A stretch of 44,255 nt of DNA, from assembly GCA_022627515.1 (NCBI GenBank), contig JAKEGK010000240.1, forward strand, positions 1 to 44,255. The letters run 5' to 3'. Shown one piece after another: positions 9,565 through 10,811 of the stretch. How positions within the stretch are numbered: position 1 is the stretch's first letter; every line of letters begins with the position of its first letter. The notes below the pieces were generated by a model that saw nothing but the letters and a program-made list of their open reading frames with translations, made no database searches and had not been told where the DNA came from. A program made the position numbers and the translations under genes. Source of the DNA: Gammaproteobacteria bacterium (GTDB lineage Bacteria > Pseudomonadota > Gammaproteobacteria > SZUA-152).

Positions 9565-9925
9565 GGGAGTCGGCTGAACAGTCGCGCTATTCTTCGGAAT
9601 AGGGAGGAAAGTCCGGGCTCCACAGGACAGGGTGCCAGGTAACACCTGGGGGGCGTGAGTCCACGGCCAGTGCAACAGAAAACATACCGCCTAAGCGCCT
9701 TCGGGCGCCGGTAAGGGTGAAATGGTGCGGTAAGAGCGCACCGCGTCGGTGGTAACACGCGACGGCATGGTAAACCCCACCCGGAGCAAGACCAAATAGG
9801 GGAACATTCGCGTCGCGAACGATGTGGTCCGCATCGGTTCCCGGGTAGGTTGCTTGAGATATGCGGTGACGTATATCCAGATGAATGACTGTTCACGACA
9901 GAACCCGGCTTATAGGCTGACTCCC
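9565..9925 (+). ncRNA. rnpB: RNase P catalytic RNA (M1 RNA, type A)
   Basis: RNase P RNA is the ribozyme that removes 5' leaders from pre-tRNAs. The sequence carries the universally conserved segments AGGAAAGTCCGGGCTCC, CAGGGTGCCAGGTAAC, GTGCAACAGA, GGGTGAAATGGTGCGGTAAG, GAGCAAGACCAAATAGGGG and GATGAATGACTGTTCACGACAGA, in the correct order. The P1 helix is formed by GGGAGTCGGC (from 9565) with GCTGACTCCC (to 9925), closing the molecule with one G-U pair. A short T tract follows the 3' strand. The 5' and 3' ends are inferred from P1 pairing and may be off by a few bases. The minus-strand ORF 9522-9896 is only an antisense shadow. Confidence 0.97.
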
Positions 9926-10090
9926 TCCTTTTTTGTTTGTCTTAGTCTTTTCCTGGGTGTTCCACGGGAGTGTTTCACAGTTAAAATCCCAAGTAATTGA
10001 CTATAAATTACACGCATTCGCCACTGTTTGCGCTCCAGTCGGGTAAGTTTTAATCATTATTGTCCGCCAAAGCATCAAACCAGAGCAGAT

Positions 10091-10112
10091 TTAATTAGCA
10101 AGTGCTAATTAA
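10091..10112. repeat. Perfect palindrome A, TTAATTAGCA-AG-TGCTAATTAA
   Basis: Ten-base arms are fully complementary around a two-base centre. It lies in the rnpB-mraZ gap and touches palindrome B. It is too AT-rich and lacks a T tract for an ordinary terminator, so a protein-binding site is more likely. Confidence 0.85.
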
Positions 10113-10134
10113 CTTAAAGTGTTACTTTAAGTTA
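10110..10134. repeat. Perfect palindrome B, TAACTTAAAGT-gtt-ACTTTAAGTTA
   Basis: Eleven-base perfect arms flank a three-base centre. It shares TAA (10110-10112) with palindrome A and ends about 120 bp upstream of the mra promoter. The half-sites differ from those of palindrome A, so two different factors, or one factor with loose specificity, could be involved. Confidence 0.85.
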
Positions 10135-10256
10135 GGTATTTAACAGGCTGTAACTAAGGTTATTTACCGTTCAATGTGCTGCATAATTCCCCGCCACTTT
10201 CTCGTAAGTCATTGTCATAGCAAGAAGAAACTTCCCTCTTTTTGTGGATATTTATC

Positions 10257-10286
10257 TTGACACTATGATAGTTTAATTCCTATAGT
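10257..10286 (+). promoter_or_regulatory. Sigma-70 promoter of the mra/dcw operon
   Basis: A perfect TTGACA (10257-10262) and TATAGT (10281-10286) are separated by 18 bases, predicting a start near 10293. CACTAT...ATAGTG forms an inverted repeat spanning the spacer and -10. The MraZ boxes begin immediately downstream. This corresponds in position to Pmra of E. coli. Confidence 0.75.
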
Positions 10287-10295
10287 GTAGTAATG

Positions 10296-10340
10296 TGGGG
10301 AAAAGTGGACTTTTCTGGAATTCCATGGGTAATTGTGACC
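10296..10340 (+). promoter_or_regulatory. MraZ operator: five TGGNN boxes every 10 bp
   Basis: TGGGG, TGGAC, TGGAA, TGGGT and TGACC start at 10296, 10306, 10316, 10326 and 10336, each separated by exactly five bases. MraZ of E. coli binds TGGGN direct repeats with 5-nt spacers upstream of its own gene. Two boxes match exactly and the others are degenerate. The array covers about +4 to +48 of the predicted transcript, a position suited to autorepression. Confidence 0.8.
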
Positions 10341-10358
10341 AGTTAGGGGATTTTTTGC

Positions 10359-10811
10359 TTGTTAAGTGGGCATACTTCGATCAATCTGGATGCGAAAGGC
10401 CGGTTAGCGATACCGACACGCTACCGTACCTATCTGAGCGAGAGCTGCAGTGGGAAATTTTGCGCCACGGTGCATCCGGATGTGTGCCTGATGCTCTATC
10501 CGTTGCACGAGTGGGGTCCCGTGCAACGCAAAGTCATGAAGCTTTCCAATATGAACAAAAAAGCCCGCGATCTGCAGCGGCTGATCATTGGTTATGCCTC
10601 GGAACTGGATATGGATACGAATGGCCGGTTACTTCTGCCGCCCTCCCTGCGCGAGTTCGCCAAGCTGGACAAACGGGTCGTGCTAATCGGCGTCGGCAAC
10701 AAGTTTGAACTTTGGGACGAAGCGCGCTGGAGTGACCGTCAAAACGAGTGGCTGGCTGACGGAGGCAACGAAAGCAGCCTGTCCGAAGAACTGGAGCAAT
10801 TGTCGTTATAG
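10359..10811 (+). CDS. mraZ: Transcriptional regulator MraZ
   Basis: MraZ is an AbrB-like DNA-binding protein, first gene of the dcw cluster and repressor of its own operon in E. coli. The 150-aa protein has the two tandem SpoVT/AbrB-type folds with the DxxxR motifs DAKGR (11-15) and DTNGR (86-90), plus the KFELWDEARW segment typical of the family. The start is a TTG at 10359. It gives exactly the family N-terminus (MLSGHTSINLD) and has AGGGGA eight bases upstream; no suitable ATG exists in frame. MraZ acts as a ring-shaped oligomer on the repeat boxes just upstream. rsmH starts 13 bp downstream. Confidence 0.97.
   Translation: MLSGHTSINLDAKGRLAIPTRYRTYLSESCSGKFCATVHPDVCLMLYPLHEWGPVQRKVMKLSNMNKKARDLQRLIIGYASELDMDTNGRLLLPPSLREFAKLDKRVVLIGVGNKFELWDEARWSDRQNEWLADGGNESSLSEELEQLSL

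Follow-up and report, generated by a model that had tools for sequence, protein, structure and literature searches.

The perfect palindrome P2, which lies upstream of the promoter of the mra (dcw) cluster in a gammaproteobacterial genome (4.4 Mb, 312 contigs), is probably an operator and the outer half of a control module that is conserved upstream of this promoter; a dimeric factor would bind it, aided by looping through an IHF-type protein. The comparison of mraZ upstream regions establishes, at the level of sequence, the presence of the module in many gammaproteobacterial families, in one register and orientation and at restricted distances from the promoter. The features concerned, numbered within the 44,255-bp stretch of DNA that was analyzed (the window), are as follows.

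9566–9928, plus strand: rnpB, RNase P RNA class A, the upstream neighbor, directly followed by a T run (9929–9934)
10091–10112, no strand: perfect palindrome P1, TTAATTAGCA-AG-TGCTAATTAA, lineage-specific, with the half-site TTAATTAGC common to the nearest relative
10110–10134, no strand: perfect palindrome P2, TAACTTAAAGT-GTT-ACTTTAAGTTA, proposed operator, forming the outer, high-consensus half of the distal element
10111–10156, plus strand: whole distal composite element (P2, spacer, and IHF-like box), from matrix and model searches
10141–10153, plus strand: TAACAGGCTGTAA, degenerate IHF-like inner half (YAAS-N4-TGATT), in the same register as in other genomes
10203–10231, plus strand: proximal box CGTAAGTCATTGT-CAT-AGCAAGAAGAA (STAAGTNNYTGT plus A-tract), at -52 from the -35 hexamer
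10257–10286, plus strand: mra (dcw) sigma-70 promoter, TTGACA-18-TATAGT, with the -35 TTGACA starting at 10257 and TATAGT ending at 10286
10295–10329, plus strand: MraZ boxes (GTGGGG, GTGG, and ATGGG repeats), from sequence, downstream of the -10
10359–10811, plus strand: mraZ, the gene that opens the dcw cluster, with a TTG start

The initial annotation had drawn attention to the two abutting palindromes, and its description of them was accurate on rechecking: the arms of P1 (10091–10100 and 10103–10112) are 10 bp long with a 2-nt loop, those of P2 (10110–10120 and 10124–10134) are 11 bp long with a 3-nt loop, three bases are shared, and 123 bp separate the end of P2 from the -35 hexamer at 10257. 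No other perfect inverted repeat in the window has arms of at least 10 bp and a loop of at most 6 nt, and 0.25 such repeats would be expected from window shuffles. When the 430-bp rnpB–mraZ gap (63% A+T) was shuffled 2000 times with its dinucleotides preserved, nine sequences contained one such repeat and none contained two, which bears out the view that tandem perfect arms are unlikely to arise by chance. As had also been noted, neither palindrome is inside rnpB because that gene occupies 9566–9928. The palindromes do not recur in the rest of the genome: other matches to P2 did not exceed the count for a reversed-pattern control, no second P1 was found above the control count, and each palindrome is thus unique, by which a repeat family or mobile element was ruled out. 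Among relatives that have a named record, the nearest (MAG JAADGF010000105; locus L033) has an MraZ 81% identical to that of the window, and the apparent TTG start of mraZ at 10359 has a TTG at the same place there.

The distal and proximal elements

The comparison set comprised 164 non-redundant mraZ upstream regions, taken from named contigs and a class-wide sample. Across Gammaproteobacteria many of these regions carry a 45-bp distal element, CTTAARG...ACTTTAARTW-N7-YAAS-N4-TGATTT, to the outer part of which P2 is a match. The inner half, YAAS-N4-TGATTT, takes the form of the perfect IHF consensus YAAN4TTGATW, which reads WATCAAN4TTR on the opposite strand, in 24 of the 164 regions, against 1.2 expected, always in one orientation, and that consensus is present at the site in most genomes of the same family too. 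The outer half stands in fixed register with the inner one, with A at -12, R at -11, and TTxA at -27 to -24. The inner half of the window, TAACAGGCTGTAA at 10141, has two to three mismatches to the IHF consensus and ranks 76th within the window.

With a matrix built from 117 sites of other families, 10111–10156 was the best place in the 44 kb (24.3 bits, versus 11.3 for the next), and the P2 half of the matrix alone ranked the site first among all places in the window on both strands. Because the window had been part of the motif search from which the 117 sites came, a stricter held-out test was made, in which a matrix from 62 named-contig sites, with this family excluded, was applied to 72 class-wide promoters of other families. 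It found matches above the 99% shuffle level at 43 of the 72 (0.7 expected), nearly all of them at about -92 to -131 from the -35 hexamer, and 33 also have the proximal box. Under this strictest training the site in the window reached p = 0.0055 (11/2000), and its P2 half alone p = 0.013 (26/2000). Two sequence-only covariance models were run on whole genomes. For R2, trained without the window, the site upstream of mraZ was the top match in this genome and in G001, G002, G005, G006, G007, G009, and G010; for R3, trained without the family, it was top or joint top in many genomes of the family and was tied in this one (E 0.13).

Closer to the promoter, a proximal box, TAAGTNNYTGT, was found in 89 of the 164 regions against 0.5 expected, and its relaxed form TAAG[TC]NNYTG in 107, with an A-tract following the box; named records that have it include Woeseia-type bacteria, Ectothiorhodospira, Spiribacter, and Arhodomonas. 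Apart from four outliers, its start falls 36–42 or 50–53 bp ahead of the -35 hexamer and never at 43–49 bp. The two positions thus differ by 12 bp, or roughly one turn of the helix. No clear period was detected in the distal–proximal spacing, and discrete positions were seen only for the proximal box. A proximal matrix from other families placed 10203–10231 first in the window, at 22.0 bits versus 6.6. Woeseiaceae-type loci (L043, L047, L053, L083, L097, and others) have an additional conserved block, GCCACAATTCGCCC...GGGCCAC with GCCAC repeated, between the two boxes. Escherichia coli K-12 has neither the distal nor the proximal box, and the E. coli literature therefore does not bear directly on them.

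Symmetry of P2 and the place of P1

Most of 19 upstream regions from the same family (six genera) have a gap-free counterpart of P2, aligned through CYTAAKNNTTTACTTTAASTT, and its distance from the promoter stays similar although the rnpB–mraZ gap varies from about 300 to 700 bp. The expectation that the palindromes would be conserved in this gap among relatives thus held for P2 and failed for P1, which has no counterpart at the same place in that alignment, and this does not support treating the two as a single tandem unit. All 11 dyad pairs of P2 are complementary in the window, compared with 7–8 of 11 or fewer in the relatives, and we conclude from the alignment that P2 is conserved in sequence and that its full symmetry is peculiar to this genome. 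At the level of the consensus, the P2 dyad center was the most symmetric of the centers tried (0.395 versus 0.22–0.33), and two loci from two other families (L030 and L214) have palindromes of their own, TTAATGTTCAACATTAA and CTTAATGCAATTCATTAAG, about the same dyad center. Compensatory changes were not found at the P2 dyad, where halves permuted between genomes pair equally well (p 0.23–0.49). Halves that resemble each other but do not change in compensation favor a protein site built of two like halves over an RNA hairpin. In other families, moreover, only modest symmetry is seen and covariation within genomes is absent, so that the alignments do not require the P2 half to be an operator of the dyad type.

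The half-site of P1, TTAATTAGC, is also palindromic in L033, where it occurs with exchanged arms as GCTAATTAA-TT-TTAATTAGC, well upstream of the P2 counterpart; none of 5000 shuffles of the L033 gap yielded such a palindrome. Since the half-site forms a palindrome elsewhere in the gap of this relative, P1 is, on present comparisons, a lineage-specific site whose position is not fixed. This extra site would probably serve another regulator, and it may resemble the sites of SlyA (TTAGCAAGCTAA), ArcA, and HrcA-type proteins.

Proposed mechanism and alternatives

In the mechanism that we favor, a dimeric transcription factor would bind the P2 half, an IHF-type protein would bend the DNA where the YAAS-N4-TGATT box adjoins, and the bend would carry the factor to RNA polymerase by looping. 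The A-tract beside the proximal box might assist as a UP-type contact near the polymerase. The weak IHF-like box of this genome is perhaps offset by its strong P2, which is a guess, and ihfA is encoded in the host genome (G000:C114, score above the curated cut-off). The module would thus set the transcription level of the division and wall genes on top of autorepression by MraZ, by activation or by repression, a direction that we can only infer. MraZ autorepression acts through GTGG boxes, which are present at the same mra promoter; those boxes differ from the P2 module in being downstream of the -10 and unrelated in sequence. Among the roles put forward by the initial annotation, those of an operator and of a nucleoid-protein site controlling the cell-wall cluster are supported only in the case of P2, together with flanking DNA that had not been marked. 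A more specific version, to which we subscribe only tentatively, is that the P2 half is recognized by a dedicated, previously undescribed dcw regulator, conserved over much of Gammaproteobacteria and absent from E. coli, which together with IHF and the proximal box would be the main input to the dcw cluster.

The need for a dedicated factor would disappear if IHF, or an IHF/HU-type protein, contacted the whole distal element by itself, including P2 as an extended flank, and acted architecturally, bending the upstream DNA so that it wraps onto RNA polymerase. The inner half has the published IHF consensus TAAnnnnTTGATW (PMC10380432), and, as at IHF sites upstream of sigma-70 promoters, YAA-N4-TTGATW occurs in many genomes in a single orientation about 100–125 bp upstream of the -35 hexamer. 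The P2 and IHF halves keep a fixed register, and the AA-N5-TG core is found in the proximal box too. The distal element differs from such sites, however, in its extra conserved block, the P2 half, and in this genome a strong P2 half stands beside a degenerate IHF half. Neither the A conserved at -12 nor the TTxA of -27 to -24 is known as an IHF position, and the proximal box has TGT instead of the TGA preferred by IHF. Binding by IHF alone therefore seems rather unlikely to us.

A direct-repeat site for a response regulator of the OmpR/PhoB family, such as PmrA (half-site YTTAAK or CCTAAG), is improbable. A PmrA (BasR) box has a 5-bp spacer and a period of 11 bp, whereas the half-sites are 13 bp apart in this genome, with a spacer of 7 bp. 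What speaks for such a regulator is the recurrence of CTTAAG, CTTAAT, and CCTAAG in the left arm, which match the PmrA half-sites quoted in PMC10927774; the half-sites in common are CTTAAK/CCTAAK. TTAA is self-complementary, and direct and inverted arrangements are therefore indistinguishable by sequence.

It would be surprising if the region were transcribed and the palindromes worked as RNA hairpins, either within a 5′ leader that extends the dcw mRNA upstream or at the end of the rnpB transcript, the latter being another role proposed at first. An extended leader does exist in Rhodobacter sphaeroides, whose dcw cluster is preceded by the UpsM leader (PMC5089854), and P2 could fold into a hairpin. 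UpsM likewise consists of conserved non-coding DNA upstream of mraZ, but it is an RNA element with a terminator, while the P1/P2 region has neither a terminator nor covariation. The predicted folding is ordinary (z -1.35 for P2 and -0.2 for the whole gap), and no terminator-like site was found in 9880–10420. The stems of the palindromes are 77–80% A+T and lack a T run, unlike an intrinsic terminator with its G+C-rich stem and T run; rnpB ends at 9928 and has its own T run there, so neither the 3′ end of its transcript nor a simple rnpB terminator accounts for them. Nor does the distal element follow rnpB: as the gap varies over about 300–700 bp it tracks the mra promoter, which lies downstream at a kept distance, and this argues against an rnpB 3′ end.

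We give little credence to the view that P1 and P2 are neutral AT-rich palindromes that chance or mutation through hairpins produced beside a conserved site, which would explain why perfect symmetry occurs only here and why P1 is missing in most relatives, but which does not agree with the shuffles (0/2000 for two repeats in the gap, 0/5000 for the P1 half-site palindrome of the nearest relative) or with the fit of P2 to the cross-family consensus.

Search for other targets and significance of the module

The genome search scored up to 150 candidates per genome, and weak sites would be missed. Among these candidates no consistent second target of the P2 half was found, and shared genes near model matches away from mraZ were mostly absent. 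Recurrence at other promoters of a regulon was thus not seen in this genome or its relatives, and it is not required of a regulator with a single target. The distal-model matches that did recur away from mraZ, upstream of a Kelch-like gene that two relatives share (L277 and L280; G010:C9:110924 and G014:C171:2023), where a divergent response-regulator gene adjoins, and at one locus in three relatives, owe their score to the IHF-like half. A conserved ACACTTGAG...TTTTAACTTATTGATTT with a perfect IHF consensus lies downstream of a small LexA/S24-like gene at L278, L279, and L282 (G021, G018, and G019). Proximal-model matches away from mraZ that were inspected either fell by coincidence in coding sequence (smpB, in each of two genomes) or lay in unrelated spacers. 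A further match of 14 bits (L275; G007:C233 near 21771), too weak to use, falls in the rpsA–ihfB spacer, beside the gene for an IHF subunit.

No earlier description of the upstream module was found in the literature searched, which excluded most subscription journals. A PdhR site reported at E. coli mraZ (PMC3265435) is similar in that a regulator ties physiology to the dcw promoter, but it was reported in a species that itself has neither the distal nor the proximal box. Beyond a few model species, little is known of how cells set transcription of the division and wall cluster. A conserved module in fixed register at the promoter that feeds most dcw genes would represent an input that is invisible in E. 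coli, which lacks the module, and it supplies short, defined DNA baits and point mutations with which a direct search for the binder becomes possible.
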